NCBI GenBank assembly: GCA_920105625.2
Contig: OV050030.1
Span: 106,113,698-106,177,697, forward strand
Direction of reading: 5' to 3'
Source: Clusia tigrina
Lineage: Eukaryota > Arthropoda > Insecta > Diptera > Clusiidae
Length of the DNA: 64,000 bases
Shown: in pieces, positions 18,898-56,521 of the stretch
How positions within the stretch are numbered: position 1 is the stretch's first letter
Layout of the letters: the number at the start of each line of letters is the position of its first letter
Notes under the pieces: generated by a model
Database searches by the model: none
What the model was told of the DNA's origin: nothing
The model's input: the letters and a program-made list of their open reading frames with translations, nothing else
Position numbers and translations under genes: made by a program

Positions 18898-19091
18898 TGT
18901 AACGACTCGTTTTCGCCGGGGTAAGCTCGCCGGATTGCCAGGAGTCGTTTACAGAAAATCTCTAAAGTATTCAAAGCTTGTTTACGTTGATTTAATTATT
19001 TTATTTATTTATTAATTTTAAAAAAAGGCTTAACTACTTGATACAATTATTTTACTAATCTTAAATACGGACACAGTTGAACTATATGTCC

Positions 19092-19880
19092 CCCTAGCTT
19101 CTGTTGCGTTTGTCAGTGTGGGTTTCTAGCAGAGAATCGATTATAAACCATAATCTCCTCTAGATTCCCCTAGCTTCTGTTTGCGTTTGTCAGTGTGGGT
19201 TTCTAGCAGAGAATCGATTATAAACCATAATCTCCTCTAGATTCCCCTAGCTTCTGTTGCGTTTGTCAGTGTGGGTTTCTAGCAGAGAATCGATTATAAA
19301 CCATAATCTCCTCTAGATTCCCCTAGCTTCTGTTTGCGTTTGTCAGTGTGGGTTTCTAGCAGAGAATCGATTATAAACCATAATCTCCTCTAGATTCCCC
19401 TAGCTTCTGTGCGTTTGTCAGTGTGGGTTTCTAGCAGAGAATCGATTATAAACCATAATCTCCTCTAGATTCCCCTAGCTTCTGTTGCGTTTGTCAGTGT
19501 GGGTTTCTAGCAGAGAATCGATTATAAACCATAATCTCCTCTAGATTCCCCTAGCTTCTGTTTGCGTTTGTCAGTGTGGGTTTCTAGCAGAGAATCGATT
19601 ATAAACCATAATCTCCTCTAGATTCCCCTAGCTTCTGTTTGCGTTTGTCAGTGTGGGTTTCTAGCAGAGAATCGATTATAAACCATAATCTCCTCTAGAT
19701 TCCCCTAGCTTCTGTTTGCGTTTGTCAGTGTGGGTTTCTAGCAGAGAATCGATTATAAACCATAATCTCCTCTAGATTCCCCTAGCTTCTGTTGCGTTTG
19801 TCAGTGTGGGTTTCTAGCAGAGAATCGATTATAAACCATAATCTCCTCTAGATTCCCCTAGCTTCTGTTGCGTCTGTCAG
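19092..19880. repeat. 76-bp minisatellite in 3' LTR of A (10 units plus a partial)
   Basis: Unit starts CTAGCTTCTGTTGCGTTTGT and ends CTCTAGATTCCC. Units differ in the T count of CTG(T)nGCG: 2 T = a (76 bp), 3 T = b (77 bp), 1 T = c (75 bp). The order here is a b a b c a b b b a, then a partial unit that diverges after TTGCGTCTGTCAGTGCG. Each unit contains ATCGAT within an inverted arrangement (AATCGATT). Confidence 0.95.
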
Positions 19881-20547
19881 TGCGTATAACTTTGTTTAGT
19901 ACGATGCGTCTGGTCTGTCTGATGCCGAATGAAAAAAAAGAGCGTCTTGTCTGCCTGATGCCGAATGAAAGAAAGAGCGTCTTGTCTGCCTGATGCCGAA
20001 TAAAATAAAGAGGCTGGGTTGCCAGTTGCTCCTGCTTTTATGCTCCAGGTTTAGCGTAGATCATCCAATAGTTGTTGTTGTGCGGGAACTGTAGTTTGTT
20101 GTGGCATGTTGCTACGGTTTCCCGCATTGTTCTTCTCGTTTGAATGTGACCTTGGGCCACCTTCAGCACATTGTTGTTGCTTTCTCGCTGTTGTTCTTGT
20201 AAGTTTTTGCCCTTGGCCACCTTCAATATTGTGTTGTTGTTGTGATGATTTACCTTGTTGTTGTTCCTTGTGTTGTTTGTTGTTGTTGCTATTTGTCCTT
20301 CGGCCACCTTCAGCACTTTGTTGATATTTTATATCGATGGCATAAAATATTTAAAAATATTAAATATTGGATATTTAATTTTGCTTCTCCTCTTTATGCT
20401 TTGTCCGGTCTGTTGGTGTGCTTAGCGATCGGTCTGTCGTGTTCCACTTTGTGCTTGGCCTTCGTTTTTGGGTGTTGTTAGTGGGTTATTTTCCGAACTA
20501 ATGCAGTCGGCAACTTCTGTCGCGATCTCTTGTAAAATTCTAGCATT

Positions 20548-20640
20548 GCGTTAGGCACTGTTGTTGTAAATTCATATCAGTGCGTTGGGCACTGTTGTTG
20601 TGAATTCATATCAGTGCGTTGGGCACTGTTGTTGTAATAC
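20548..20640. repeat. Three short tandem repeats inside LTR of A
   Basis: GCGTT(A/G)GGCACTGTTGTTGT followed by (A/G)AATTCATATCAGT occurs three times in a row with a period of about 35-36 bp. The same triplet is in the other LTR at about 27146-27238. Confidence 0.85.
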
Positions 20641-21072
20641 AATTATATTATTTTAGCTGTGGTCAGCCGGTTGCACAATTGTTTGTGTGATATTCTCCTG
20701 TGTTATCTTGCGTTGTTGACTTCGTTGCATGTTTTTCGTCGCTTATCACAGGGTTCCACTGTCTGACTTAATTGTGGCTGTGTCTTCTGTCCTCCCAATG
20801 CAGAGTATAACACTTGTTGTTGGTAGCATTACTATGGTGGGAGGTGTCTTAGACTCACTTGTATGATGGCTGCTGCACTAAATATGATGGCGGTTGTGTG
20901 TGTGGTTTTAGCAATGAAAGTGGGAGGTGCCAAATTCTTAGGACTATTAACGTATATATTTTAGGGTTGGTTGTTTAAGCACTCGGCCCCTATTTTAAAT
21001 ATACACGTTTGGGGCGTTATGGCAAAACTAAATATGTAGGGGCAAATTTACGCCTAAAATTTGCTCCTCACA

Positions 21073-21087
21073 TGTCCTCCCTACTTT
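21073..21087 (-). promoter_or_regulatory. Polypurine tract of element A
   Basis: On the minus strand AAAGTAGGGAGGACA directly precedes the LTR start TGTGAGGAGC. Element B has AAAGTCGGGAGGACG at the same place. It primes plus-strand cDNA. Confidence 0.85.
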
Positions 21088-21200
21088 GCGGCCGATGGAA
21101 AATGGTCACCTTACCCTGCCAGAGGGTGATGATTTTGCATGATCCTCGCTGGAATCGGATTCCTTTCCGTTGTGTACACTGTTCTCGTCAGATGCGTTTG

Positions 21201-24200
21201 TTAGTTAGCGTATGCTGTGATGCCACCAGGCGCGCAGAATGATTTAAGCTCGCTAACATGCGCTGTCTTTGTCTCCTTGGTTCCTTCACGTTTCATCTTG
21301 ACAATGACTGGGGAGGTGAAGGTGTCTATCCGGTATGGCCCATCGTAGCGTGGGGCCAACTTGGCGGCGAAGTGATCAATGGCTTTGGACAAATGGTGCT
21401 GTTTTGCTAACACCAATTGTCCAACTTCTGGTTTCCAGGGCCTTCGTCGTAGGTTATAATGACGCCGTTGATCTTGAGCCGCTCGCTCCAGATTCCTTGT
21501 CACTAATGTGTATGCTTCCTTTAGTAGTTCGGCTCTTTCGTTGGGTGTTTGTTTCCTTTGTCCTGTTCCTGGGGTGGTTTCATCGTACAACGCTCCTGGG
21601 CGTCGTGGCTCCCGTCCTTGTATTAGGAACGCGGGGCTATAGCCAGTTGTCTCGGATACGCTGGTATTGATCGCCAGGGATAATTCCGGCAGTAGGTCAT
21701 CCCACTTTTGTTGCTGTTTACCGGCGTATTGGGCGATCATGGTCTTGACTGTGCGGTTGGCGCGTTCGGCAGCATTTTCCTGTGGTGTGTACGGTGCGGT
21801 AAACTGGTGCTTGATACCGTAGTCTTCTACAAAGCGCTGAAAGGACTTACTTGTAAACTGTGATCCGTTGTCCGTCACTAAGATCTTAGGAACTCCGAAA
21901 CGGGCTAAGATGCGCTCCCGAAAGGCCCGTTGTAGAGTCTCGGTGGTGGCCTTCCGAAGAGGCGCCATCTCTGTCCATTTTGAGAACTTATCATGGAAAA
22001 CTAGTACCATTGTGTTTCCATGCTTTGAGCGGGGTAGAGGTCCAACAAAATCCGCGCACAATATGGCCCACGGCTCCAGGGGTATTTGCGTCAGCATTTC
22101 TCCAGCAGGTTGCTGTTGGCTGGGCTTGTACTTCTGGCATAGTGTGCACTGACGAACGTAGCGGCTGGTGTCCCGGAACAGTCCTGGCCAGTAGTACCTA
22201 TTTGCAACTCGGGCTATCGTTTTCCGGATGCCTAGGTGTCCTGCGGTTGGCGCGTCGTGGTTTTCTTGCAAAATTCGTACCCTCAGAGGCCTAGGTACGC
22301 ACAGCTTCCATTGTGTACAGTCCTCATCACCCGTGCGATTTGGTATATGGCGATACAGCTGCCCGTTTTCCAGTGTGTAGTCGGAGAATTTAGCCGGGTT
22401 GGCAAGTATTTCTCCTTTTCGCTTGAGCCACCACTTGCAATTTTGCTCTGCTTGGTCCTGCACAGTGACAGTGCATGCAGCCTCGACCGGTTGTCTTGAT
22501 AGTGCGTCTGCCAGTACATTTAGTTTTCCTTTGCGGTATTGTACCTCGAATGAATGCTGCTGAAGTTCTAGCGCCCACCGTGCTATGCGTCCTGAAGGGC
22601 TCTCGATGGAATTTAGCCACTTCAGCGATAGGTGGTCGGTGATCACGGTAAAGTGGTAGCCCTCCAGATATGGCCGCATTTTCCGGATGCCCCATATTAT
22701 GGCTAGACACTCCTTCTCAGTTGGGGAGTAGTTTAGCTCAGCTCCATTCAGGTGTCTACTAGCGTACGCTATTACTCGCTCCGCCCCCTCGATCTCCTGC
22801 GTAAGCACTGCTCCCAACCCATAGTCACTGGCGTCGGTCTGGAGCGTGAACTTCTGACTAAAGTCTGGGCAGGCGAGGATCGGAGCTTCCGTCAATCGTT
22901 GTTTCAGTAATTCAAAAGCCTCCTGTTGTTCGGTACCCCATCGGAAATGTTTTCCTTTCTTTAGCAGCATCGTTAAAGGGTGTACTGCTTTTGCAAAGTC
23001 GGGTACAAAACGGCGGTACCAAGATGCTATGCCCAAGCAGCGACGTAGCTGTCGTATGTTCTCTGGTGGTTGCAGCTCCCGTATGGCAGCGATTTTATCT
23101 GGGTCAGTATGTATTCCTTTGTCGCTGACCACGTGTCCCAGATATTTTAGCTCCTTCCGAAAGAATGCACACTTCTCCAGATTTAGTTTCAAATTTGCCT
23201 CCCTCAACCGTCGGAACACCTCTTGCAGGTTTCTCATGTGTTCTTCTAGGTCTCTCCCTGTGACAATAATGTCATCGAGGTAGGCAAACGCGTGTGGCTC
23301 CATGTCGTGGCCAATAACTTGGTCCAGTGCTCTTTGAAACGTTGCTGGTGCGGAGTGTAGCCCGAAAGGCATAACACGCCACTGGAAGAGGCCTCTGCCG
23401 GGTACCGTGAATGCGGTATACTGCTTGCTGTGCTCCTCCATTGGTATCTGCCAATACCCGTTCTTCAGATCGAGACTACTGATGTATTTAGCCTCACGCA
23501 GTCGGTCTAAGATGTGTTGGATTCGCGGCAGTGGGTATGCGTCGGGTATGGACCTGGCGTTGAGTTGCCGATAATCGATGCACAGACGCCATTTCCCATC
23601 CCGTTTCCTTACTAGCACAATCGGTGCGCTGTGGGGGCTATGCGAGGGTTCGATACAGCCTTTAGCTATTAATTCGTCCACTTCCGCGCCAATGATTTCT
23701 TGCTGCGCTGGATTTCTCGGGTAGTATCGTTGTTTGATGGGTCGGTCATCGCGCATCACTATTTTGTGGCTTGTGATATTGGTCACGTTTGGCCCGTCTG
23801 TGAATTTAGCCAACTCTGTGGCCAGAAACAGTTTTATCTTTGATTCGTCCGTAGCGGCTTCATGTCGTATGGTTGTGCACGATGCGATAACTTGTGATTG
23901 CACACCATCCGTCTTGGGGCCTAGCTGGATTTCCTGGCCTCCACATGTCATGGATAGGCCTTGCTGTGTCATGAAGTCCAGGCCGAGCAGTAAGTCGTCG
24001 GTGGAGTCGGGCATGCTAAGTAGCTCCAGCTGACATACCTTTCCACCAAGCTTGACACACGTCACAAACGCTTGAGTAATATCCCTTGTTCGACCATCCG
24101 CCATCCGTGCTCTAGTGTATGTAGAGTTTACTCTACCGGTGGTAGCACCTAAATGGGAAATGAGTCGCTCGCTGATGAAACTCCTTGTGGCGCCTGTGTC

Positions 24201-24344
24201 TAGTGTGGCCGTGATGTTTTCTGTGCCAATGGTGACGGCGGCACAGATACGCTGTCCATCGTAGCGTAGTGCACTTACTGCGTTTGAGGCTTGTTGTCCG
24301 TGGGCTGCTCCATGCCTCGTTGCTGGCGGCAGCCCCGCTCGTTT
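21201..24344 (-). CDS. pol: Pol of element A (protease-RT-RNase H-integrase)
   Basis: Open from the -1 slip site in gag to the stop at 21201, about 1047 codons; the longest ATG frame starts at 24104, but the protease lies upstream of it, so translation by frameshift from gag is the better model. Protease active site TLDTGATRSFIS has its Asp codon at 24200-24198. RT has WRLCIDYRQLNARS, YISSLDLKNGYWQIPM, FQWRVMPFGLHSAPATFQRA and the catalytic FAYLDDIIVTG. RNase H has FTLQTDASDYGLGAVLTQE and LSLKWLNSIESPSGRIARW. Integrase has HDAPTAGHLGIRKTIAR with CTLCQ, then DDE in CADFVGPLP, LVTDNGSQFTS and ENAAERANRT. No break seen. Confidence 0.95.
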   Translation of the reverse strand, partial: KRAGLPPATRHGAAHGQQASNAVSALRYDGQRICAAVTIGTENITATLDTGATRSFISERLISHLGATTGRVNSTYTRARMADGRTRDITQAFVTCVKLGGKVCQLELLSMPDSTDDLLLGLDFMTQQGLSMTCGGQEIQLGPKTDGVQSQVIASCTTIRHEAATDESKIKLFLATELAKFTDGPNVTNITSHKIVMRDDRPIKQRYYPRNPAQQEIIGAEVDELIAKGCIEPSHSPHSAPIVLVRKRDGKWRLCIDYRQLNARSIPDAYPLPRIQHILDRLREAKYISSLDLKNGYWQIPMEEHSKQYTAFTVPGRGLFQWRVMPFGLHSAPATFQRALDQVIGHDMEPHAFAYLDDIIVTGRDLEEHMRNLQEVFRRLREANLKLNLEKCAFFRKELKYLGHVVSDKGIHTDPDKIAAIRELQPPENIRQLRRCLGIASWYRRFVPDFAKAVHPLTMLLKKGKHFRWGTEQQEAFELLKQRLTEAPILACPDFSQKFTLQTDASDYGLGAVLTQEIEGAERVIAYASRHLNGAELNYSPTEKECLAIIWGIRKMRPYLEGYHFTVITDHLSLKWLNSIESPSGRIARWALELQQHSFEVQYRKGKLNVLADALSRQPVEAACTVTVQDQAEQNCKWWLKRKGEILANPAKFSDYTLENGQLYRHIPNRTGDEDCTQWKLCVPRPLRVRILQENHDAPTAGHLGIRKTIARVANRYYWPGLFRDTSRYVRQCTLCQKYKPSQQQPAGEMLTQIPLEPWAILCADFVGPLPRSKHGNTMVLVFHDKFSKWTEMAPLRKATTETLQRAFRERILARFGVPKILVTDNGSQFTSKSFQRFVEDYGIKHQFTAPYTPQENAAERANRTVKTMIAQYAGKQQQKWDDLLPELSLAINTSVSETTGYSPAFLIQGREPRRPGALYDETTPGTGQRKQTPNERAELLKEAYTLVTRNLERAAQDQRRHYNLRRRPWKPEVGQLVLAKQHHLSKAIDHFAAKLAPRYDGPYRIDTFTSPVIVKMKREGTKETKTAHVSELKSFCAPGGITAYAN

Positions 24345-25477
24345 CCCCCTACCGTCCTACAACATTCAACTGTTCTAGTTCCTCTCCTACCGCACTCCCA
24401 ACAGAAAAGTACTTGGGCATTGCGGCAGTGTCGCGCTATATGATCAGACTGACCACATCTTCTGCATGCTGTTCGTGGATTTATAGGTACCACCTTGTTG
24501 GTACATTTGGCCGGTGCTACTTGTCGGTTTCTGGTTTCGCATGGGGACATGCGGTCGACCCGTGGTTGTATCTCGTGGCGTGTTGGTGATGGTCGTGGTG
24601 GCGGTGGTCGTGGTGGTGCTGCTCGGGAAGCCTCGTTGTCACCACGTATGCCCTCGAGGTCTTCCGCCATTTCCACCAATTCTTCCAGCGTATCGAAATC
24701 CTTTCGACGGACATACCACTGGTATTCCTCTAGGCTGTTGCGAAAGATTCGCTCTAACTTCTGGGCCTCCGTGTATCCTGCGTGACGCATCAGGTTTTGA
24801 AGTTCTACCACGAACTGTTTGAAGTGTTCACGTGGGTTTTGCCGTCGTTGGCGAATTTCATCCTCCAGCTTTTCGAAGTACCTGGTGGGTAGGAAAAACT
24901 TCAAGAAGTCCTTTTTGAATAAAACCCAATCAACCCATGCTCGGTTGTTGTTTCTATACCAGAGCAGAGCACGCTCCTTTAGGAGTTCTGGCATAGTTCG
25001 AGGCAGCATGTGCTTGTTTAGTCCATAGACTTCCGATAATTCTTCCACTCGCTCTATGAAAGCTATCGGGTCATGCCCTCCATCATATTTCAAGGACCAT
25101 TTCCCAACGTGGTCGATGACTGCCGAGTAGATGGCTATCCCGCTTCGCGAGACTTCAGGGACTACTGTCTGGAACGCGGTATCAGATATTCCCGCTGCTT
25201 TCTTCGTGGCTGTCGATGCTCCGGGGCTTATAGGTCGCTCTGCGCTGGGGCTAGCTCTCAAGTGTGACCTGGGTCCTGGCGACAAACTCCTCGTGAGTCG
25301 GGCCTGTATCTCTGCCAGCCGAACCTCCTGGTCTAGAGTCATCTCTGTGCCGGTGATAAACTCCGCAAGCCTCTTTCGTAGCTCTTCCACTGTGCCCGTG
25401 GCCTCTAGGCCAAACTCGACACAACAGACTACCAGTTGGTCTTTTCGCACGGTGTACACCCAACTCGTCTTTCCCAT
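24275..25477 (-). CDS. gag: Gag of element A, with SAP-like N-terminus
   Basis: ATG at 25477, 75 bases inside the primer site; 400 codons. Residues about 8-40 (RKDQLVVCCVEFGLEATGTV, then LRKRLAEF) have the Leu/Gly spacing of a SAP helix-extension-helix motif, known for DNA/chromatin and SUMO-ligase proteins. The capsid-like middle includes HDPIAFIERVEELSEVYGLN and LLWYRNNNRAW. Two Cys-rich knuckles follow: CRRCGQSDHIARHC (CX2CX4HX4C) and CWECGRRG. The end overlaps pol in the -1 frame. The protein forms the particle and binds genomic RNA. Confidence 0.9.
   Translation of the reverse strand: MGKTSWVYTVRKDQLVVCCVEFGLEATGTVEELRKRLAEFITGTEMTLDQEVRLAEIQARLTRSLSPGPRSHLRASPSAERPISPGASTATKKAAGISDTAFQTVVPEVSRSGIAIYSAVIDHVGKWSLKYDGGHDPIAFIERVEELSEVYGLNKHMLPRTMPELLKERALLWYRNNNRAWVDWVLFKKDFLKFFLPTRYFEKLEDEIRQRRQNPREHFKQFVVELQNLMRHAGYTEAQKLERIFRNSLEEYQWYVRRKDFDTLEELVEMAEDLEGIRGDNEASRAAPPRPPPPRPSPTRHEIQPRVDRMSPCETRNRQVAPAKCTNKVVPINPRTACRRCGQSDHIARHCRNAQVLFCWECGRRGTRTVECCRTVGGNERGCRQQRGMEQPTDNKPQTQ
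24341..24347 (-). promoter_or_regulatory. -1 ribosomal frameshift heptamer GGGAAAC (gag-pol, element A)
   Basis: Minus-strand GGGAAAC lies in the gag frame as G GGA AAC, the X XXY YYZ form of retroviral slip sites; the pol frame is exactly -1 to gag and open from here. Element B has the same heptamer in the same phase at 48490-48496. A downstream pseudoknot was not evaluated. Confidence 0.75.
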
Positions 25478-25552
25478 CCTGTGTCAGACTCTGGTGATGG
25501 GACGTGGGTTGGATAATATAGCTTTGTTGTATTTACTATCTTTATTCTGAGA

Positions 25553-25570
25553 GTCCCTGCTCGGGCGCCA
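25553..25570 (-). promoter_or_regulatory. Primer-binding site, tRNA-Lys type (element A)
   Basis: Minus-strand TGGCGCCCGAGCAGGGAC starts one base after the 5' LTR. It differs from the classical tRNA-Lys3 primer site by one base. Confidence 0.9.
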
Positions 25571-25571
25571 C

Positions 25572-27670
25572 TGTAACGACTCGTTTTCGCCGGGGTAAGC
25601 TCGCCGGATTGCCAGGAGTCGTTTACAGAAAATCTCTAAAGTATTCAAAGCTTGTTTACGTTGATTTAATTATTTTATTTATTTATTAATTTTAAAAAAA
25701 GGCTTAACTACTTGATACAATTATTTTACTAATCTTAAATACGGACACAGTTGAACTATATGTCCCCCTAGCTTCTGTTGCGTTTGTCAGTGTGGGTTTC
25801 TAGCAGAGAATCGATTATAAACCATAATCTCCTCTAGATTCCCCTAGCTTCTGTTTGCGTTTGTCAGTGTGGGTTTCTAGCAGAGAATCGATTATAAACC
25901 ATAATCTCCTCTAGATTCCCCTAGCTTCTGTTGCGTTTGTCAGTGTGGGTTTCTAGCAGAGAATCGATTATAAACCATAATCTCCTCTAGATTCCCCTAG
26001 CTTCTGTTTGCGTTTGTCAGTGTGGGTTTCTAGCAGAGAATCGATTATAAACCATAATCTCCTCTAGATTCCCCTAGCTTCTGTTTGCGTTTGTCAGTGT
26101 GGGTTTCTAGCAGAGAATCGATTATAAACCATAATCTCCTCTAGATTCCCCTAGCTTCTGTTGCGTTTGTCAGTGTGGGTTTCTAGCAGAGAATCGATTA
26201 TAAACCATAATCTCCTCTAGATTCCCCTAGCTTCTGTTTGCGTTTGTCAGTGTGGGTTTCTAGCAGAGAATCGATTATAAACCATAATCTCCTCTAGATT
26301 CCCCTAGCTTCTGTTTGCGTTTGTCAGTGTGGGTTTCTAGCAGAGAATCGATTATAAACCATAATCTCCTCTAGATTCCCCTAGCTTCTGTGCGTTTGTC
26401 AGTGTGGGTTTCTAGCAGAGAATCGATTATAAACCATAATCTCCTCTAGATTCCCCTAGCTTCTGTTGCGTCTGTCAGTGCGTATAACTTTGTTTAGTAC
26501 GATGCGTCTGGTCTGTCTGATGCCGAATGAAAAAAAAGAGCGTCTTGTCTGCCTGATGCCGAATGAAAGAAAGAGCGTCTTGTCTGCCTGATGCCGAATA
26601 AAATAAAGAGGCTGGGTTGCCAGTTGCTCCTGCTTTTATGCTCCAGGTTTAGCGTAGATCATCCAATAGTTGTTGTTGTGCGGGAACTGTAGTTTGTTGT
26701 GGCATGTTGCTACGGTTTCCCGCATTGTTCTTCTCGTTTGAATGTGACCTTGGGCCACCTTCAGCACATTGTTGTTGCTTTCTCGCTGTTGTTCTTGTAA
26801 GTTTTTGCCCTTGGCCACCTTCAATATTGTGTTGTTGTTGTGATGATTTACCTTGTTGTTGTTCCTTGTGTTGTTTGTTGTTGTTGCTATTTGTCCTTCG
26901 GCCACCTTCAGCACTTTGTTGATATTTTATATCGATGGCATAAAATATTTAAAAATATTAAATATTGGATATTTAATTTTGCTTCTCCTCTTTATGCTTT
27001 GTCCGGTCTGTTGGTGTGCTTAGCGATCGGTCTGTCGTGTTCCACTTTGTGCTTGGCCTTCGTTTTTGGGTGTTGTTAGTGGGTTATTTTCCGAACTAAT
27101 GCAGTCGGCAACTTCTGTCGCGATCTCTTGTAAAATTCTAGCATTGCGTTAGGCACTGTTGTTGTAAATTCATATCAGTGCGTTGGGCACTGTTGTTGTG
27201 AATTCATATCAGTGCGTTGGGCACTGTTGTTGTAATACAATTATATTATTTTAGCTGTGGTCAGCCGGTTGCACAATTGTTTGTGTGATATTCTCCTGTG
27301 TTATCTTGCGTTGTTGACTTCGTTGCATGTTTTTCGTCGCTTATCACAGGGTTCCACTGTCTGACTTAATTGTGGCTGTGTCTTCTGTCCTCCCAATGCA
27401 GAGTATAACACTTGTTGTTGGTAGCATTACTATGGTGGGAGGTGTCTTAGACTCACTTGTATGATGGCTGCTGCACTAAATATGATGGCGGTTGTGTGTG
27501 TGGTTTTAGCAATGAAAGTGGGAGGTGCCAAATTCTTAGGACTATTAACGTATATATTTTAGGGTTGGTTGTTTAAGCACTTGGCCCCTATTTTAAATAT
27601 ACACGTTTGGGGCGTTATGGCAAAACTAAATATGTAGGGGCAAATTTACGCCTAAAATTTGCTCCTCACA
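25572..27670 (-). repeat. 5' LTR of element A (2099 bp)
   Basis: Near-identical to 18898-21072. Carries nine full minisatellite units plus a partial one. It is followed at 27671 by ATAT, the right target duplication. Confidence 0.95.
25767..26478. repeat. 76-bp minisatellite in 5' LTR of A (9 units plus a partial)
   Basis: Same unit as at 19092-19880. Variant order by T count is a b a b b a b b c, then the partial unit. The loss of one 'a' unit accounts exactly for the 76-bp length difference between the two LTRs. Confidence 0.95.
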
Positions 27671-33845: not shown

Positions 33846-35552
<1,707 letters not shown>

Positions 35553-39648: not shown

Positions 39649-40959
39649 CTAAATTTCAGTATAAGTAGGTATCGGTAGTGGACACAACTTAGATATCGAG
39701 CGCTTGTAAGTCCCGGTTTGAGTGCGTACGGTGACTACGCGTACCAGGTTGTCTGATCCAGGATGGAGTTCGACAACGCGAGCCATGACCCATTCATTTG
39801 GCGGTAGACGATCGTCTTTGACTATAACCAATTCATTCAGCTGTAGATTTGGACGCTGTTGACACCATTTTGGTCGTGTTTGAAGCAGAGCTAACCAATC
39901 CAAAGTCCATTTCTGCCAAAAGTGTTGCAGCATCCGTTGAGTTTGAAGATAGTGGTGGCTAAGTAAAACGTTCGATGCTGCTGAATCAACAGGCGGTGAA
40001 AGAAGTGGGCTCCCGATCAGGAAATATCCGGGGGTACGCACCATCAAATCATCCGGGTGCGAGGTCAATGGACACAATGGCCGCGAGTTGAGGCATGATT
40101 CAATGCGTACAAGTAGAATTGAGAGTATCTCGAATGTAAGGCGCGTACCATTCAGAACTCGCTTTAAGTGGTACTTGACAGCCTTCACATTGGCCTCCCA
40201 CAGACCCCCAAAATTAGGGGAGTGAGGGGGGTTGAAATGCCATTGGATGCCGTGGCTAGCGATATGCGGTACGCCATCTTCCTTGATGTCTTCCACGAGC
40301 TTACGTTTGCTTGCATGCAAAACTTTATCGTCACTTTTGAAGTTGGTTCCGCAGTCGCTGTAAATATCCTTGCACAGCCCTCGCCGGCCGATGAATCTTT
40401 GTAGCGCTAGCAAAAAAGCTTCGGAAGACATTCCAGTAACTGCCTCCAAGTGAACCGCTTTCGTTGCTAAACAAATGAAAATTGCGATATAGCTCTTGTA
40501 CGTAGTGTTGCCTCGGTATCGTGACGATTTGATTTCGATAGCACCAGTATAATCGATACTGGTGGCCAGAAATGGGCGTTGTGGTGGATTGACGCGATGA
40601 AATGGTAAGCCACCCATTAGCAGAGAATATGAGAAATGAAACTTACTTAAGGTGGTTAGAAACTGTTGCCAATGATGATTTATATCTACTGGAAGTTGCT
40701 CATCCCAGCCCAGGGCCGTGCTTACTGGATGCACCCGTTGAACTTTGTACATCCAAACTGACTTAAGCAGAATTTTCGCAGTTAAGATGATAGGTGCAAT
40801 AAGCCCTTGTGGATCAAACAGCCGAGCAATTGTTGATAGCAAAGCACGTTTCGTTGCAGAAAAGTCAATTTCGAAGTTCAGCTTGAAGATGAAAATGTCC
40901 TGATTGGGCTGCCAGTACATCCCTAGTGTTTTGACCGTTTCGGTGCTGTTGAAATTCAA
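39649..40959 (-). pseudogene. pol: BEL RT C-terminus fused by deletion to integrase
   Basis: A 436-codon frame. It starts with the RT end typical of Pao (TVKTLGMYWQPNQDIFIFKL, LLSTIARLFDPQGLIAPIIL). After KFHFSYSLLMGGLPFHRVNP it is already at the integrase core: FLATSIDYTGAIEIKSSRYR (Asp), DIYSDCGTNFKSDDK (Asp) and PHSPNFGGLWEANVKAVK (Glu), then the C-terminal NELVIVKDDRLPPNEW. RNase H and the zinc-binding domain are therefore deleted in frame. Catalytic DDE is present, but the enzyme lacks its N-terminal part. Confidence 0.9.
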
Positions 40960-45912: not shown

Positions 45913-46711
45913 ATATATATTGTAAAGACGGAAAATACCAGAAGTATTTTCCGCATACACAACAAAAACTATATGCTACCACCAGAGACCGTGTTAAGTC
46001 CAAAAACAAATAACGATGTCCACCATATTTTATTTGTTTTAACCACAAACAATATTCAAGCATGCAACCATCCCCGATATCATGCAGCTTAAAAAGGTAA
46101 CCACCTCCCACGCTAAATGCAACAACAAAGACAGCGGATAAGTATAACAAAACATTTACGCACAGATGATCGGACCAATAAACGTACAGGTGGTGAGGAG
46201 CGCAGAAACCGAAAGAGTTAGACTGAAGACGACGACGGCTTAATAGTACAAAGAACATCAAGAGGGACTAGTACGGCTATAAAGGAGAAAAGAAACAGCA
46301 AGCAAACATTTCTACAACAGTGCAGCGACCAAAGGCGGAACACAGAGAGACCCGAAAGAGCATCACACACACGCACCGATCGCAAACACAGAACCGTAAG
46401 CAGGCGGAGTGTGAAAGAATATATTAACAACAACAACACTACAGCGACCGAAGGCGGAACACGGATGACAACGAGAGCGCACCGATCGTAAACACAGAGC
46501 CGTAAGCAAGCGGAGTGTGAACGATATATTAATTACAACAACAGCAAAGCGACAACTAACAGCAGCGATCAGGCCACACTACTGCAAGCAACAACTACGA
46601 TGGACAACTAGGGGAACTACAACAAGGTGGACAACCAGCGAAAGTTGAAGGTGGCCTAAGGACAACTGGGCCACAACTACAACGAGCACTGATCCCCTGG
46701 AGAGCTTTCGC

Positions 46712-46770
46712 TATATAAGCGGAGTGAACCAAACACCAAGCCTCTTTGATCCAGCATCGCTCCGTAAGTA
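46712..46770 (+). promoter_or_regulatory. LTR core promoter and leader of element B
   Basis: TATATAA at 46712-46718. CAAGCCTCTTTGATCCAGC starts 25 bases later, at the expected transcription start. CGTAAGTA at 46763-46770 fits the 5' splice donor consensus. The same layout recurs at 51729-51786 before ORF3 and in the 3' LTR near 53894. Confidence 0.7.
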
Positions 46771-46841
46771 GACAACGCACCAAGCTCCTAGAGACGCACC
46801 AAGCATCGAAACTAGGTACGTTGACTATTGACAATAAATCA

Positions 46842-47021
46842 ACGCAGACAGAGCCAGTGGAGTTTATGGTTTTGACCGACTCTCCCTGGGACACACACGC
46901 AACGCAGACAGAGCCAGTGGAGTTTATGGTTTTGACCGACTCTCCCTGGGACACACACGCAAAGCAGACAGTGCCAGTGGAGTTTATGGTTTTGACCGAC
47001 TCTCCCTGCGACACTAGTACA
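46842..47021. repeat. 60-bp tandem repeat in 5' LTR of B, three units
   Basis: Unit AACGCAGACAGAGCCAGTGG ... CCCTGGGACACACACGC. The 3' LTR has five units at 54022-54321. Because 60 is divisible by three, an open frame runs across it, but it lacks an ATG in the LTR copy. Confidence 0.93.
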
Positions 47022-47213
47022 AACCACGGACACTACCACGAGCACACAGAGTAGGGTAGTAATTAAATATAATTATATATATGTATAGGAAATAAGTAGT
47101 AATTTTGAAAATAAATAAAAACACTTATAAAAACTAACGCTATTGAAATAAATTTCTGTAAGTGACCCTGGGACCCGCTGAGTTTTTACCCCAGCGAAAA
47201 CGAGTCGTTACAG

Positions 47214-47231
47214 TGGCCCCCGAGCAGGGAC
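47214..47231 (+). promoter_or_regulatory. Primer-binding site, tRNA-Lys type (element B)
   Basis: TGGCCCCCGAGCAGGGAC, one base after the LTR. One base differs from element A (GCGCCC/GCCCCC). Confidence 0.85.
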
Positions 47232-47386
47232 TTTCAAAAGAAATTCAACGCATCGGATTTAAAAAAAAAAACAGAGTGATAAACAACTACGTCGATCTAC
47301 GCAGTCACTCAGAGGAGTGCCGAATCAGCACCAGGTTATACACACAAACACCCATTGTTTTCATCATCATCTAAGACGAACACAGG

Positions 47387-48562
47387 ATGGTGAAAACAAG
47401 TTGGTTGTACACGCTGCGCAAAGAGGAGCTGGTGATTTTCGCTGTGGAACTCGGCATAGAAGCTGCAGGAACCGTGGAAGATCTCCGTAAGCAACTATCA
47501 GAGTTCTTCACGGAGACTGAATTGACTGAAGAACAACGAAACCGCTTAGAAAAGCTAAAATCCAGGTACGTCAGGAGTACGTCACCCAAGCTGGCTACGC
47601 CCATAGGTACCCGCAATACGCTGAGCGTGGACAGACCAGGCCATATATTCACAGGTGAAATACCAGCGGCATGGGAGGCAGAGTTTCGGAGGACATCACT
47701 GCATCGCGCTGTGTCACCAACGGCCATTGACCAGCCACACCAGGCACAGTACGCCGGAGTCATCGATCATGTGAGGAAATGGTCTATTAAATACGATGGT
47801 GGCCGTGACCCGCTGGCATTCCTTGAACGAGTGGAGGAGCTCTCGGAAGTATATGGGCTCAACAAGGATATGCTCCCACGTACCATGCCGGAACTGTTAA
47901 AAGATCGTGCGCTTCTATGGTATCGCAATAACAATCGTTCCTGGACAGCATGGAATTTATTCCGGAAGGATTTTCTTAAATTCTTCTTGCCTGCCAGATA
48001 CCTGGAGAATTTGGAGGATGAGATCCGACAGAGGCGGCAAAAACCACGTGAGAAATTCAAAGAGTATGTGTTGGAGATGCAAAATCTGATGCGGCAAGCA
48101 GGGTACACGGAATCACAGAAGCTAGAGCGCATTTTCCGGAATAGCTTGGAAGAGTACCAATGGTACGTGCGCCGGAAGGATTTTGGAACGCTGGAAGAAC
48201 TAGTGGAGATGGCCGAAGACTTGGAAGGCTTCCGTGGCGACCGGGACCCACACCGAATACCCTCTGTACAATCACGAGTCGAGCGTACACCACCACGTGA
48301 GGCCCGCAATCGACAGGTAGCGCCGATTAGTAACACTGGAGCGGAGGCACGCATCGATGTGCGCACAGCTCGCAGACGCTGCAGACAGACGGGGCATTTG
48401 GCGCGACCCTGCAGAAATGCTCAGGTTCTATTCTGTTGGGAGTGCGGCCAGAGGAACATAAGAACAGTGGAGTGCTGCAGAGCGCAAGGGGGAAACGAGC
48501 GGGGCTGCCGTCAAGAGCGAGGCGGGGCGCAGCCCATCAGCAACAGCCCTCAACAACACTAA
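47387..48562 (+). CDS. gag: Gag of element B, with SAP-like N-terminus
   Basis: ATG at 47387; 391 codons, intact. N-terminus RKEELVIFAVELGIEAAGTV then LRKQLSEF has SAP-like spacing. Capsid part shared with A: DPLAFLERVEELSEVYGLN and LLWYRNNNRSW. The zinc knuckle reads RRRCRQTGHLARPC, with the first Cys (present in A as CRRC) replaced by Arg, so this knuckle is probably weakened; CWECGQ follows. The end overlaps pol in the -1 frame. Particle assembly and RNA binding are the family roles. Confidence 0.9.
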   Translation: MVKTSWLYTLRKEELVIFAVELGIEAAGTVEDLRKQLSEFFTETELTEEQRNRLEKLKSRYVRSTSPKLATPIGTRNTLSVDRPGHIFTGEIPAAWEAEFRRTSLHRAVSPTAIDQPHQAQYAGVIDHVRKWSIKYDGGRDPLAFLERVEELSEVYGLNKDMLPRTMPELLKDRALLWYRNNNRSWTAWNLFRKDFLKFFLPARYLENLEDEIRQRRQKPREKFKEYVLEMQNLMRQAGYTESQKLERIFRNSLEEYQWYVRRKDFGTLEELVEMAEDLEGFRGDRDPHRIPSVQSRVERTPPREARNRQVAPISNTGAEARIDVRTARRRCRQTGHLARPCRNAQVLFCWECGQRNIRTVECCRAQGGNERGCRQERGGAQPISNSPQQH

Positions 48563-51500
48563 ACGCTTTACGTTGCGATGGGCAGCGTATCTGTGCTGCA
48601 GTCACCATCGACACCGACGAAGTGACGGCCACTGTCGATACCGGAGCCACTCGGAGTTTCATCAGCGAAAGCCTTAGCCGTCAGTTACGTGCAACCACCG
48701 GTAGGGTAATTCCTACACACATACGTGCACGTATGGCTGATCACGGAGGTACTGCGAGTGAACATAAAATTAGGGGGCCGAAGCTGCGAACTAGAGCTAC
48801 TCACCATGCCCGACTCAACAGACGACCTCCTTCTGGGACTCGATTTCATGTCGACTATGGGAACAAAAATCGAATGCGGGGACCAAGAAATCGTACTAGG
48901 ACCTCAGATTCGGGGCGTGCAAAACAGCGACATTACATGGTGCACGTCCATTCAAGAAGAGACCATTACGGAAAGGGGACTATCGAAGGATTTCTGAAGA
49001 CCGAGCTGGCTAAGTTTGAGGACAAGCCTGGAGTAGCCAACATCACGAGTCACAAAATTGTGATGCGTGACGACAGGCCAATAAAGCAACGATATTACCC
49101 CAGGAATCCCGCACAGCAGGAAGTAATCAACGCCGAAGTGGAAGATTTGCTGAAAAAGGGATGTATAGAGCCTTCACATAGCCCACATAGCGCCCCAATT
49201 GTCCTCGTGCGAAAAAAAGATGGGAGGTGGAGACTGTGCATAGACTACAGGCAACTGAATGCCAGATCCATACCGGATGCATATCCGTTGCCCAGGATAC
49301 AGCATATATTGGACCGCTTACGGGAGGCGAAATACATTAGCACCCTAGACTTAAAGAACGGGTACTGGCAAATTCAAATGGATGCCCACAGCAAAGAGTA
49401 CACCGCATTCACGGTGCCAGGCCGTGGACTCTTTCAGTGGAAAGTAATGCCATTCGGGCTACATTCAGCACCTGCGACCTTTCAACGAGCTTTAGACCAG
49501 GTAATAGGCCCTGAGATGGAGCCGCACGCGTTCGCATACCTGGATGATATCATCGTCACAGGGCGAACACTAGAGGAACACCAACAGAACATAACCGAAG
49601 TATTCCGACGCCTACGAAAGGCCAACCTTAAATTGAATAAAGACAAATGCGCGTTCTTCCAGAGGAAATTAAAGTATTTGGGTCACGTGGTCAGTGACCA
49701 AGGAATCCACACTGATCCAGATAAAATCGCGGCCATCAGAGAACTCGAGCAACCCCAAAACATACGAGAGGTGCGACGCTGCCTGGGTGTAGCGTCATGG
49801 TACCGTCGTTTTGTTCCAGACTTCGCCAAGACAGTACACCCGTTAACACTATTGCTAAAAAAGGCAAGCACTTCAAGTGGGCTGGAGAGCAACAGCACGC
49901 GTTCGAACAATTGAAGCAGAAATTGACAGAGGCACCAGTCCTGGCGTGCCCGGATTTTACTAAGAAGTTTGTGCTCCAAACCGACGCAAGCGACTACGGA
50001 CTAGGCGCGGTATTCACTCAAGATGTCGACGGGATGGAACGCGTGATAGCCTACGCCAGCCGCCACTTAAATAACGCAGAGCGGAACTATTCACCCACAG
50101 AGAAGGAGTGCTTAGCGATCGTGTGGGGTATTAGAAAGATGCGACCCTACCTCGAGGGATACCAATTTACGGTCATCACGGATCACCTATCACTAAAATG
50201 GTTAAACTCCATCGAAAGCCCTGCAGGTCGTATCGCAAGATGGGCCCTTGAACTGCAACAGTACACATTCGACGTGCAATACCGGAAGGGAAAATTGAAC
50301 GTGTTAGCCGACGCCTTGTCTAGACAGCCAACAGAAGCCGCCTGCACCATTACCATTGAGGACCGAACAGAACCAGACTGCCCCTGGTGGCAGAAACGAA
50401 GAGCAGAGGTCATCGCTAGGCCGGAGAAATATGCTGACTACCAATTGGAAGGTGGACAGTTATACAGGCACATCCCGAGTTATCGCGGCGACGAAGATTG
50501 CGTCCCGTGGAAACTGTGTGTGCCAAGAGCGTTCAGGAACCGGGTACTACAGGAAAATCACGATGCACCCACGGCAGGACACTTAGGTATCAGGAAAACA
50601 ATAGCACGGATAGCCAACCGATATTACTGGCCGGGGCTATTCCGCGATACAAGTCGATACGTGCGTCAATGCTCCTCCTGCCAACGATTTAAAAGCAGCC
50701 ACCAACAACCAGCTGGGAAAATGTTGAGCCACATCCCCACTGAACCTTGGTCTGTCTTGTGCGCCGACTTTGTCGGGCCCTTACCCCGGTCGACACATGG
50801 CAACACCATGCTAGTCGTGTTCTTCGATAAATTCTCCAAATGGACCGAGATGGCCCCCCTCCGAAAAGCCACCACCGAGACATTGCAACGGGCTTTCCGG
50901 GAACACATCCTGTCTCGCTTTGGAGTACCTAAAATCCTAGTGACGGACAATGGGTCTCAATTTAGTAGTCGAGCGTTTCGCCGGTTCACAGAAGGGTTTG
51001 GCATCAAACATCAGTTCACGGCGCCCTACACTCCGCAGGAAAATGCGGTGGAATGCACCAATCGCACCATCAAGACTATGGTGGCCCAATTTGCGAGTCA
51101 ACGGCAGCAGAAGTGGGACGACTTGCTTCCCGAATTGACTCTTGCCATTAATACTAGTGTATCGGAGACAACGGGATACAGTCCGGCTTATCTGATACAA
51201 GGGCGTGAACCGCGACTACCAAAGGCGCTGTACGATGAGACAACGTTGGGTACAGGGCTAACCCCACAGATTGCTAACGAACGGGTAGATCAACTACAAG
51301 AAGCTTATCGCATCGTGAGGCAAAACTTGGAACGAGGAACACAGGATCAAAGAAGACATTATAATCTGCGACGCCGAGAGTGGAAACCGGAAGTTGGACA
51401 ATGGGTGTTAGTCAAGCAACACCACTTGTCCAAAGCAACAGAGCACTTCGCCGCCAAGCTAGCACCGCGATATGAGGGACCCTACCAGATAGTAAACTTC

Positions 51501-51626
51501 ATTTCACCGGTAATCATGGAGCTGCAGCGAAAGGGAGACAAACGCAGGAAGACCGCTCATCTCAGCGAAATTAAAACATACTGTGCGCCTGGTAACCACG
51601 AGGAAGACAACAATGACCCACACTAA
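48436..51626 (+). pseudogene. pol: Pol of element B (protease-RT-RNase H-integrase, frameshifted)
   Basis: The first frame (48436-49914) has the protease site TVDTGATRSFIS (Asp codon 48637), then reads out of frame from about 48730 to 48985; the correct protease end (LTMPDSTDDLLLGLDFMS) is in the frame 48725-48997. RT follows in frame: WRLCIDYRQLNARS, YISTLDLKNGYWQIQM, FAYLDDIIVTG. A one-base loss in an A run near 49860 shifts to 49797-51626, with RNase H (FVLQTDASDYGLGAVFTQD) and integrase (HDAPTAGHLGIRKTIAR, CADFVGPLP, LVTDNGSQFSS, ENAVECTNRT). DDE and YLDD are present, but three frame breaks disable it as read; sequencing error in homopolymers is possible. Confidence 0.93.
48490..48496 (+). 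promoter_or_regulatory. -1 frameshift heptamer GGGAAAC (gag-pol, element B)
   Basis: G GGA AAC in the gag frame (GGA codon begins at 48491). Pol is open in the -1 frame from 48436. Same heptamer and phase in element A. Confidence 0.75.
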
Positions 51627-51840
51627 TACAAAGGAGAAACGGTGAGAGGACCAGGAGAGCGGAAAACTAAGAGCTGAGAGAACCAGATTGCCGCTCTCGT
51701 GGAATACCGTTACCTCACCAAAACGGGTATAAAAGGGCCTCCACGCCACCATACAAGCCTCTTTAATCTTCAGCGCACGTAAGTAAAACAACGTTCTCGA
51801 AACTAACAAACCAAAGGAAAAAAAAACAAAAAAACCCACG
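51627..51840 (+). promoter_or_regulatory. Internal promoter and A-rich leader for ORF3
   Basis: TATAAAAG at 51729-51736. CAAGCCTCTTTAATCTTCAGC starts 26 bases downstream and CGTAAGTA lies at 51779-51786. The block from CAAGCC to ACAACG matches the LTR leader (46737-46777) at roughly 33 of 40 positions and sits at the same distance from TATA. The leader then becomes A-rich up to the ORF3 ATG (AACCCACGATGG). The TATA box and leader are seen; promoter activity is inferred. Confidence 0.7.
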
Positions 51841-53001
51841 ATGGCTCAAATAACGATAATCCAGGCCGCACGCGTCCAAGTAGAAGAAGACAACACCCCG
51901 TCCGGCGACGAAGTCATCACGATTTACCCGACAACCACCGGAGGCATCGCTATCAGGAGTTCGGATATCGCTCGCCTACGGCCGAACTGCCTACTTAACG
52001 ATGTGCTAATCGATTTCTATTTGAGATGGCTCCTAGAGAACCTGGTACCCAGCAGAAAGCGGGGTAGAGTGCACATTTGTAGTACTCATTTTTTCACCCG
52101 ACTCACCAGACAACGGGGAACTGCGACCGACATGCACATGGGCGTAAAACGATGGACAAAGGGGAAGAACCTTTTCGACACCGATGTAATAATGGTGCCC
52201 ATAAACAAGGCAAATCATTGGTATTTGGCCGTTGTCTGTTTCCCCGGAACTCTGGTGACAGGGACAAAAGGTGCCACAATATTAATATTCGACTCCCTGG
52301 ACCGAGGTTCACACGAAGAGGAGGCCGAAATACTGAGAAGATACCTGAACGAGGAATACCGCAGTAAATTAATGGAAGACCCACCAATACCCATAAATGC
52401 CACCAGGGTACCCTCCCATCGACTCAAAACGCCGCAACAGATAAACAATACCGACTGTGGCATTTATCTACTCCAAAACGCAGAGAAGTTCCTAACACAA
52501 TCCATACCAGGAAACACATGGGACACGGCTGACTTGTCTACCTGGTTCAGCCCTGAGGACGCCACCCACAAACGAGCAGAAATATATCACCTAGTTAAAC
52601 AATTAGTTGGGGCCGAAAAACGAAAAAAAACTGCGGAAATGCTCTCAAAACAAGCGAAGGAATCACCGCCACTGGACCCGCATGGGACACCAAACTACCA
52701 ACAGGAAGAATCAGAAACCTCGGACAGCGATACGGAGACCACCTGGAAAAGACAGAAGTACAACAAAGATTCACCTCGAATACTACCCGCATTAAAGGAA
52801 CCCCACAAGGAAGACGTCCATTTCTACAGTGTACAGGAACTAGAGGGACCCAAGGCGAATGGGCTGCCCACGGCACTGGTAAGAAAAACGATAAAGATAC
52901 TAAAAGAAACCCAAGCTAGAAAAAAACGCCTACGGTTCGAACAACCACCGTACCGGGTCATAGTGCACCACGGAGAAGCAACATTCCTCCTTCGTCCATA
53001 A
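51841..53001 (+). CDS. ORF3: Ulp1/SENP-family SUMO protease (C48), SENP6/7-like
   Basis: ATG at 51841; 386 codons, intact, intronless. The catalytic domain is about residues 35-260. LNDVLIDFYLRWLLENL at 52-68 is the Ulp1 substrate-binding entry. HICSTHFFTRLTRQ, VKRWTKGKNLFDTDVIMVPI and ANHWYLAVVCFPG resemble SENP6/7 more than SENP1. Catalytic residues: His126 (NHWYLAV), Asp151 (IFDSL), Gln200 (oxyanion) and Cys206 (PQQINNTDCGIYLLQ), six residues after Gln as in SENPs. The tail is acidic (EESETSDSDTE) then basic. Family enzymes remove SUMO or trim SUMO chains in the nucleus. It lies between pol and the 3' LTR, where env would be, after its own TATA box. Deubiquitinase or Nedd8 activity cannot be excluded by sequence. 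Confidence 0.93.
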   Translation: MAQITIIQAARVQVEEDNTPSGDEVITIYPTTTGGIAIRSSDIARLRPNCLLNDVLIDFYLRWLLENLVPSRKRGRVHICSTHFFTRLTRQRGTATDMHMGVKRWTKGKNLFDTDVIMVPINKANHWYLAVVCFPGTLVTGTKGATILIFDSLDRGSHEEEAEILRRYLNEEYRSKLMEDPPIPINATRVPSHRLKTPQQINNTDCGIYLLQNAEKFLTQSIPGNTWDTADLSTWFSPEDATHKRAEIYHLVKQLVGAEKRKKTAEMLSKQAKESPPLDPHGTPNYQQEESETSDSDTETTWKRQKYNKDSPRILPALKEPHKEDVHFYSVQELEGPKANGLPTALVRKTIKILKETQARKKRLRFEQPPYRVIVHHGEATFLLRP

Positions 53002-53014
53002 AGTCGGGAGGACG
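53000..53014 (+). promoter_or_regulatory. Polypurine tract of element B
   Basis: AAAGTCGGGAGGACG overlaps the ORF3 stop region and abuts the 3' LTR start TGTAAAGACGG. It matches A's tract at 13 of 15 bases. Confidence 0.85.
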
Positions 53015-54021
53015 TGTAAAGACGGAAAATACCAGAAGTATTTTCCGCATACACAACAAAAACTATATGCTACCACCAGAGACCGTGTTAAGTCCAAAAA
53101 CAAATAACGATGTCCACCATATTTTATTTGTTTTAACCACAAACAATATTCAAGCATGCAACCATCCCCGATATCATGCAGCTTAAAAAGGTAACTACCT
53201 CCCACGCTAAATTCAACAACAAATACAACGGATAAGTATAACAAAACATTTACGCACAGATGATCGGACCAATAAACGTACAGGTGGTGAGGAGCGCAGA
53301 AACCGAAAGAGTTAGACTGAAGACGACGACGGCTTAATAGTACAAAGAACGTCAAGAGGGACTAGTACGGCTATAAAGGAGAAAAGAAACAGCAAGCAAA
53401 CATTTCTACAACAGTGCAGCGACCAAAGGCGGAACACAGAGAAACCCGAAAGAGCATCACACACACGCTAACCGATCGCACACACGAAACCAGTATTTTA
53501 ACAACAACAACACTACAACGACCGAAGGCGGAGCACGGATGACAACGAGAGCGCACCGATCGCAAACACAGAGCCGTAAGCAGGCGGAGTGTGAAAGAAT
53601 ATATTAACAACAACAACACTACAGCGACCGAAGGTGGAACACGGATGACAACGAGAGCGCACCGATCGTAAACACAGAGCCGAAAGCAAGCGGAGTGTGA
53701 ACGATATATTAATTACAACAACAGCAAAGCGACAACTAACAGCAGCGATCAGGCCACACTACTGCAAGCAACAACTACGATGGACAACTAGGGGAACTAC
53801 AACAAGGTGGACAACCAGCGGAAGTTGAAGGTGGCCTAAGGACAACTGGGCCACAACAACAACGAGCACTGATCCCCTGGCAAGCTTTCGCTATATAAGC
53901 GGAGTGAACCAAACACCAAGCCTCTTTGATCCAGCATCGCTCCGTAAGTAGACAACGCACCAAGCTCCTAGAGACGCACCAAGCATCGAAACTAGGTACG
54001 TTGACTATTGACAATAAATCA

Positions 54022-54321
54022 ACACAGACAGAGCCAGTGGAGTTTATGGTTTTGACCGAGTCTCCCTGGGACACACACGCAACGCAGACAGAGCCAGTGG
54101 AGTTTATGGTTTTGACCGACTCTCCCTGGGACACACACGCAACGCAGACAGTGCCAGTGTAGTTTATGGTTTTGACCGACTCTCCCTGGGACAAACATGC
54201 AACGCAGACAGAGCCAGTGGAGTTTATGGTTTTGACCGACTCTCCCTGGGACACACACGCAACGCAGACAGAGCCAGTGGAGTTTATGGTTTTGACCGAC
54301 TCTCCCTGGGACACTAGTACA
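54022..54321. repeat. 60-bp tandem repeat in 3' LTR of B, five units
   Basis: Same unit as 46842-47021; the third unit has a stop-creating GTGTAG. Confidence 0.93.
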
Positions 54322-54381
54322 AACCACGGACACTACCACGAGCACACAGAGTAGGGTAGTAATTAAATATAATTATATATA

Positions 54382-54762
54382 CGAGGAATGATCAAAAAAT
54401 ATCCGTTATTGTGTGATCAAAAAATAAAGTATTTATTTATTCATCAACAACTATCTTGTCCCCTTCAAAGTAATTTCCCTCAGATATAATACACTTATGC
54501 CAGCATTTTATTTCATTTTTTAAACAAAACTGAATACAGTTTCTTTGATCCATTTTTTCGAATAGTACAAAATCGAAGAGCACACCAAAACACGACTAAC
54601 CTTTTTATCTGTCAAAAACAAACTGACAATCCAAAATGGTTGGTATTGCCAACATATATAACAGACATGTGTACCAACATAACAAAAAAAAAAAATGCGA
54701 CCATCTAACATACGTAACTCACGAAAAGATGAAAATAACGGTTATTTTTTGATCACACCTCG
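54382..54762 (-). mobile_element. Internally deleted mariner (MITE) in the 3' LTR of B
   Basis: 381 bp with inverted ends CGAGG(A/T)(A/G)TGATCAAAAAATA of about 28 bp and a clean TA duplication (54380-54381, 54763-54764); the 5' LTR shows the empty site. On the minus strand the segment near 54500-54440 encodes CWHKCIISEGNYFEGDKIVV and a stop, the classical C-terminal end of mariner transposases. Only that end of the gene remains. Confidence 0.9.
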
Positions 54763-54892
54763 TATGTATAGGAAATAAGTAGTAATTTTGAAAATAAATA
54801 AAAACACTTATAAAAACTAACGCTATTGAAATAAATTTCTGTAAGTGACCCTGGGACCCGCTGAGTTTTTACCCCAGCGAAAACGAGTCGTT

Positions 54893-56521
<1,629 letters not shown>

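Follow-up and report, generated by a model that had tools for sequence, protein, structure and literature searches.

Does a fly retrotransposon carry its own enzyme against the proteins that silence it? This question is raised by a stretch of 64,000 nucleotides from Clusia tigrina (contig OV050030.1 of assembly GCA_920105625.2, positions 106,113,698 to 106,177,697; hereafter the window). Here a Ty3/gypsy long terminal repeat (LTR) retrotransposon at 45921-54895, called element A, has a third open reading frame (ORF3) behind pol, and this frame encodes a protease domain of the C48 (Ulp1/SENP) family. In the reading preferred here, to which a probability of about 0.4 is given, ORF3 is an accessory gene for a SENP6/7-type protease of the small ubiquitin-like modifier (SUMO), which would free host silencing proteins of SUMO and thereby keep the element transcribed. 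In addition to what a first-pass annotation of the same DNA had described, the present analysis found an LTR-type sequence block in front of ORF3, a sister element (element B) lacking ORF3, a vestige of ORF3 in this sister, and a broken pol in element A.

A C48 Protease Domain Encoded Behind pol

ORF3 extends over 386 codons from ATG to TAA at 51841-53001 of the plus strand, exactly where the first-pass annotation had put an intact frame of this length. When its bases were shuffled 2000 times, the longest open run averaged 94 codons and never exceeded 215. Residues 52-222 match Pfam Peptidase_C48 with an E value of 5.4e-29 and 102 bits (cut-off 20.7). This is the sole Pfam match of ORF3; no env glycoprotein of the kind that marks errantiviruses, the env-bearing gypsy elements, is found. 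An NCBIfam search gave no match, and the tail by itself matched no Pfam family.

The catalytic residues His126, Asp151, Gln200, and Cys206 align, in this order, to the corresponding SENP positions. They are invariant in alignments of four and three rows, and in a 46-row alignment the 45 rows besides ORF3 carry His in 45, Asp in 40, Gln in 45, and Cys in 45 cases. The predicted fold is that of the CE clan. The earlier claim of a C48 protease with all catalytic residues is borne out by the Pfam score and the aligned tetrad, and a profile search without any C48 hit, once named as a refutation, did not come about. At the level of sequence, it is confirmed that ORF3 encodes a C48 domain, and its product is predicted to remove SUMO or SUMO chains. 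A candidate SUMO-interacting motif, a VITI match at residue 25, was dropped as it corresponds to a strand of the predicted fold.

ORF3 as a Part of Element A

Element A is composed of the following features, all on the plus strand.

45921..47212, +: 5′ LTR, 1292 bp, TGTAAAG...GTTACA (sequence comparison)
46712..46747, +: LTR core-promoter-like block, TATATAAG followed by AGCCTCTTT at 46739 (pattern scan)
47214..47231, +: primer binding site TGGCCCCCGAGCAGGGAC, presumably tRNA-Lys-like (read from the sequence; near-identical TGGCGCCCGAGCAGGGAC in element B)
47387..48562, +: gag (PF03732), open (Pfam; 61.8% amino acid identity to gag of element B)
48436..51626, +: pol (protease, reverse transcriptase, RNase H, integrase), in several frames (ORF calls, Pfam)
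51627..51840, +: ORF3 leader, 214 bp, without ATG (read from the sequence)
51728..51764, +: predicted private LTR-type promoter of ORF3, TATAAAAG at 51728 and AGCCTCTTT at 51756-51764 (pattern scan, shuffles)
51841..53001, +: ORF3, Peptidase_C48 domain (residues 52-222), long helix, and charged tail with a predicted beta hairpin at its end (Pfam, sequence and structure comparison)
53000..53014, +: polypurine tract AAAGTCGGGAGGACG, sharing bases with the TAA stop codon of ORF3 at 52999-53001 (AAAGTAGGGAGGACA at the same place in element B)
53015..54895, +: 3′ LTR (sequence comparison)
54382..54762, +: 381-bp element with terminal inverted repeats nested in the 3′ LTR (26 of 30 repeat positions match; TA duplication)

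LTRs, primer binding site, gag, the order of reverse transcriptase, RNase H, and integrase, and polypurine tract are as expected of Ty3/gypsy. The LTRs have TG...CA ends; over 1292 aligned positions there are 19 differences between them, besides changes in length. ATAT is found at both flanks, but it lies within a TA repeat, so the duplication proves little. An argument for selection from the open state of ORF3 alone was dropped, since the copy is too young to tell.

Because its stop codon overlaps the conserved polypurine tract next to the 3′ LTR, ORF3 is, as judged from the sequence, an integral part of element A. The polypurine overlap, the LTR-type leader, and the vestige in element B all place the enzyme gene between pol and the 3′ LTR within the mobile unit. 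The first-pass annotation had described the same arrangement, with which the gypsy order of the domains and the polypurine junction agree; its remark that errantiviruses keep env in this slot is right as to position.

There are side observations on element A. Tandem repeats of 60 bp at 46840-47014 and 54020-54314 are present in unequal copy numbers in the two LTRs. The ends of the 381-bp insertion resemble mariner-type inverted repeats. At its N-terminus, the gag protein weakly matches a SAP-like domain (PF18953; E 0.00058, short of the cut-off); such domains are associated with binding to DNA or chromatin. A protein search with gag gave 56 matches, the named ones from Musca, Bactrocera, Glossina, Rhagoletis, and Teleopsis, with weaker ones from ants, which points to a fly as host. 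An alignment search of viral and genome contigs with gag found no relative.

The Sister Element and a Probable Vestige of ORF3

Element B, on the minus strand of the window, is 72% identical to element A in nucleotides over most of pol.

18898..27670, -: sister element B, gag and pol open, without ORF3 (sequence comparison)
25572-27670 and 18898-21072, -: LTRs of element B, 99.5% alike over 1910 columns (sequence comparison)
24275-25477 and 21201-24104, -: gag and pol of element B, respectively, both open (ORF calls)
21089..21199, -: vestige of the ORF3 C-terminus, with a stop at the fourth codon of the frame (anchored protein score 40)

The insertion of element B looks recent. Its LTRs hold tandem repeats of about 76 bp, and ATAT is found on both flanks as in element A. 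Synonymous sites of gag and pol are saturated between the two elements, with nonsynonymous distances of 0.10-0.27, so their common ancestor is old; dN/dS ratios (nonsynonymous to synonymous) were dropped owing to this saturation.

In element B, no more than 128 bp separate the pol stop codon from the 3′ LTR. They hold a stretch that resembles, when translated, the end of the ORF3 protein and keeps register with the polypurine tract. With the comparison anchored at the tract, the protein score is 40, while the highest scores among 4000 dinucleotide shuffles and 18140 window segments are 24 and 29, respectively; the anchored DNA score is reached by 11 of 2000 shuffles. Differences from ORF3 fall on 12, 7, and 17 of 25 first, second, and third codon positions, respectively, in an alignment that was fitted to the protein. 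Probably, this stretch is a remnant of an ORF3 that element B has lost; with the vestige in register, ORF3 is likely to be older than the split of the two elements and to have been lost in one line. Or the stretch in front of the tract may be older than ORF3, which then reads into it. Taken together, ORF3 looks useful for the element but dispensable.

Affinity of the ORF3 Protease

Both by sequence and by predicted fold, SENP7 is the nearest solved structure and the best match to ORF3, and SENP7 and Ulp2 score above NEDD8 and ubiquitin enzymes. In a library of viral structures, the best matches are cysteine proteases of a Feldmannia virus (E 5.6e-10), weaker than SENP7 in PDB. A search of 5.8 billion proteins, in which shared 5-residue words were required, gave three matches, and the nearest relatives found are about 35% identical to ORF3. 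A profile built from ORF3 and two SENP7-like proteins matched 306 proteins, and the species-named ones among the 120 listed are vertebrates; none of the proteins recovered is known as a fly SENP. Among viral contigs, no relative of ORF3 or pol was found.

ORF3 shares the fold, the catalytic residues, and the WYLAV-CFPG motif with human SENP7 and SENP6 and yeast Ulp2. In contrast to these, ORF3 is short, lacks the insertion that SENP7 has between His and Asp, and bears its own tail with a predicted hairpin. The prolines of SENP7 are replaced by TTT in ORF3, at a site which we take to be Loop 1. Because the SENP7 insertion is missing, ORF3 is classed as SENP6/7-like only. The label "SENP6/7-like" given in the first-pass annotation holds as the best match by score, while the placement was not resolved by a tree; the 31-row tree that was built was not used to place ORF3.

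A Promoter-Like Block in the ORF3 Leader

How ORF3 is expressed is a further question. Between the start of the full-length RNA and ORF3 there are 63 ATGs, so that ORF3 is unlikely to be reached by scanning on this RNA; none lies between the leader block and ORF3. This block consists of a TATA box, TATAAAAG, with AGCCTCTTT 28 nt further on, and the LTRs of elements A and B have TATATAAG or CATAAAAG with AGCCTCTTT 27 nt further on. In the 64 kb, on both strands, the pairing of a TATA-like box with AGCCTCTTT occurs at five places, namely the four LTRs of the two elements and the ORF3 leader, and AGCCTCTTT occurs without such a box at two more. Since the pattern was written after the sequences had been seen, shuffling provides the fairer test: the leader and the LTR of element A share bases from the TATA box through GTAAGT and ACAACG, with a score of 20 reached by none of 3000 shuffles. 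With the LTR of element B, only the core bases are shared (score 10). Derivation of the leader promoter from the LTR of element B was dropped, as 659 of 3000 shuffles reach that score.

Because the pairing is confined to the four LTRs and the leader, ORF3 is likely to have an LTR-type promoter of its own. In the simplest account, the LTR core promoter would have a private copy in front of ORF3, from which a short ORF3 mRNA starts that ends in the 3′ LTR. Foamy viruses use an internal promoter for the accessory genes behind pol; element A, with its predicted second promoter for a gene behind pol, is similar in this respect, while it belongs to another element family and its block resembles the LTR of the element itself.

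Somewhat unlikely, and concerning expression only, whatever the target of the enzyme, is a spliced message from the 5′ LTR, in which the shared block would mark sites of splicing, an acceptor and a donor, instead of a promoter. GTAAGT follows the block both in the LTR of element A and in the leader, CCTCTTTAATCTTCAG in the leader is a fair acceptor by eye, and for the ORF3s of rotifer elements, expression from spliced messages is stated in the accessible text of one report (PMC5408684). On the other hand, all five copies of the block have a TATA-like box at 27-28 nt, and element B keeps the block without GTAAGT in the matching stretch; these favor the private promoter.

The Proposed Role and Its Alternatives

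Transposons of the fly germline are held down by heterochromatin guided by PIWI-interacting RNAs (piRNAs), a process involving SUMO conjugation. In Drosophila, as reported in the accessible text of PMC7676866, SUMO and its ligase Su(var)2-10 take part in silencing through piRNAs, germline knockdown of the two activates many transposon families, and loss of SUMO also releases R1 and R2 through a piRNA-independent route. Furthermore, SUMOylation of Panoramix recruits Sov, according to the portion of PMC10830130 at hand. Given this role of SUMO, a de-SUMOylase made by the element would weaken silencing.

The proposed course begins with the intact C48 domain and its catalytic residues, followed by the tail, between pol and the polypurine tract. 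A separate mRNA would start at the leader TATA box and AGCCTCTTT, have the ORF3 ATG as its first AUG, and end in the 3′ LTR. Its protein is predicted to remove SUMO or SUMO chains, and, as piRNA-guided transcriptional silencing in flies needs SUMO conjugation, silencing would be weakened. The product would act in trans, so element B and any other copy lacking ORF3 could benefit from it, which would explain why element B lost ORF3 and spread nevertheless. Loss in element B is, however, predicted equally by a useless passenger. A fuller version is possible but doubtful: ORF3 would act in trans as a de-silencer. Expressed from a copied LTR promoter, it would remove the SUMO marks with which piRNA-guided complexes establish heterochromatin, and it would serve as a public good, with ORF3-less sisters like element B as cheaters.

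A number of points weigh against an anti-silencing SENP6/7-type enzyme. As for the affinity, identities over aligned residues are nearly the same for SENP1 (37.9%), SENP2 (36.8%), and SENP7 (37.7%), the SENP7 alignment being just longer and higher scoring. The fold alignment is rich in SENP6/7, which biases the rank toward them. ORF3 is altered at 26 of 78 conserved SENP6/7 columns; its residue 51 is Leu, while the 45 other rows have 41 Phe, 3 Tyr, and 1 Leu; and the His-Asp insertion, tens of residues in SENP7, is a few residues in ORF3. In the 31-row tree, where no row is known as a fly SENP, the branch of ORF3 is long and its position lacks firm support (78/81). Among 5.8 billion proteins searched through shared 5-residue words, no ORF3 relative from fly elements was recovered, though fly relatives of gag were found.

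As for the element, the window holds one full ORF3 and one vestige, and pol of element A is broken over frames, leaving gag and ORF3 open; element A is thus no intact copy with both gag and pol open. The codon-usage distance of ORF3 is 0.141-0.192 to gag and pol of the two elements and 0.137-0.169 to a jockey ORF, so the element is not singled out. When the anchor is given up, 6 of 2000 shuffles score as high as the vestige at the protein level if the tract is kept, and 1 of 3000 if it is removed; 1 of 2182 window segments, an unrelated stretch of pol of element B, also equals this score. The unanchored DNA score is reached by 796 of 3000 shuffles. By LTR identity, element B is the younger of the two; it has no ORF3, and its spread means that ORF3 is dispensable for spreading and not needed in cis.

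Among other roles, it is unlikely that ORF3 is an active SUMO protease serving the particle of its own element, where it would de-SUMOylate Gag or integrase, or guard these against SUMO-directed ubiquitin ligases, for more particles or nuclear entry. The evidence for the enzyme is identical in this case, and a gene behind pol with a private promoter would be on hand in the particle-making cell. In the DNA transposon Ginger1, whose transposase carries Ulp1 or OTU domains, a role in transposition itself has been proposed in the accessible text of the description (PMC2836005). Element B, however, spread without ORF3 though its gag is 62% identical.

Nor is it probable that the element carries ORF3 as a passenger, drawing no benefit from this captured protease gene and being about to lose it, even though ORF3 was lost in element B, has a single copy in the window, was not recovered among proteins of other flies, and sits behind a broken pol; at 1.5% LTR divergence, a frame of 1.2 kb may also stay open by luck. 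Against a passenger stand the catalytic residues, retained at about 35% identity to the nearest relatives, the promoter-like block of ORF3, and the C-terminus in element B, which is recognizable far better as protein than as DNA despite the saturation of synonymous sites in gag and pol.

A CE-clan protease with a changed target, acting on ubiquitin, NEDD8, or the polyprotein of the element, is improbable: SENP7 and Ulp2 outrank NEDD8 and ubiquitin enzymes, and pol already has an aspartic-protease-like stretch, albeit below the Pfam cut-offs. Finally, a host gene or foreign insert joined by misassembly or nested insertion, the former having been raised as a refutation in the first-pass annotation, would agree with the single copy and with codon usage that does not link ORF3 to the element, yet it is very unlikely, given the polypurine junction, the LTR block in the leader, the in-register vestige in element B, and a base composition of ORF3 near that of gag and pol.

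Relation to Known Elements

In a literature search, which did not cover subscription papers and Repbase, no LTR retrotransposon with a C48 protease was found; the first-pass annotation had likewise been aware of no SUMO protease in an animal LTR element. There are related cases. The rotifer LTR elements Vesta and Juno have enzymatic ORF3s, a GDSL esterase and a DEDDy exonuclease, as far as described in the accessible text of PMC5408684, so the env slot was already known to take enzymes. Like element A, they carry captured enzymes with intact catalytic residues between pol and the 3′ LTR, and ORF3 was gained and lost between families. Their enzymes differ from C48, and their ORF3s are reported to come from spliced messages, where element A has a predicted private LTR-type promoter; neither "ulp1" nor "sumo" occurs in the main text of that paper.

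Orchid Ty3/gypsy elements with an additional ORF for an AlkB N6-methyladenosine (m6A) demethylase, active in vitro, are documented in the available part of PMC9289625. These are gypsy elements with a host-type enzyme acting on a regulatory mark, like element A, but the host is a plant and the enzyme an RNA demethylase. C48 domains themselves are encoded by the DNA transposons Ginger1, Mutator, and Crypton, according to the accessible portions of PMC2836005 and PMC3212892; these mobile elements differ from element A in having neither LTRs nor reverse transcriptase, and C48 of Ginger1 is fused to the transposase. In planarians, the gypsy-like giant element Burro carries a SUMO-like domain, as mentioned in the accessible text of PMC6431247.

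Surroundings of the Elements

The 64-kb window (1-64000) is dense in transposons. The following were found by domain search.

5146-7455, -: further gypsy-type reverse transcriptase
13234-14454, +: copia reverse transcriptase
30699-31436, -: further reverse transcriptase of copia type
34021-34944, +: ORF with a DUF4817 helix-turn-helix domain, behind a long TA-repeat reading
39649-40959, -: BEL/Pao piece
56815-59508, -: jockey-like ORF with endonuclease and reverse transcriptase

Implications

We know of no transposon-made counter-weapon against the SUMO step of silencing. If the proposed role is true, ORF3 would be such a weapon against the SUMO step of piRNA heterochromatin, and thus part of a direct intragenomic arms race in an animal. 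The locus makes this idea testable: the catalytic cysteine is named, a private promoter is predicted, and an ORF3-less sister lies within the same 64 kb. Even with another target, a SUMO protease would join the enzymes captured by LTR retrotransposons.
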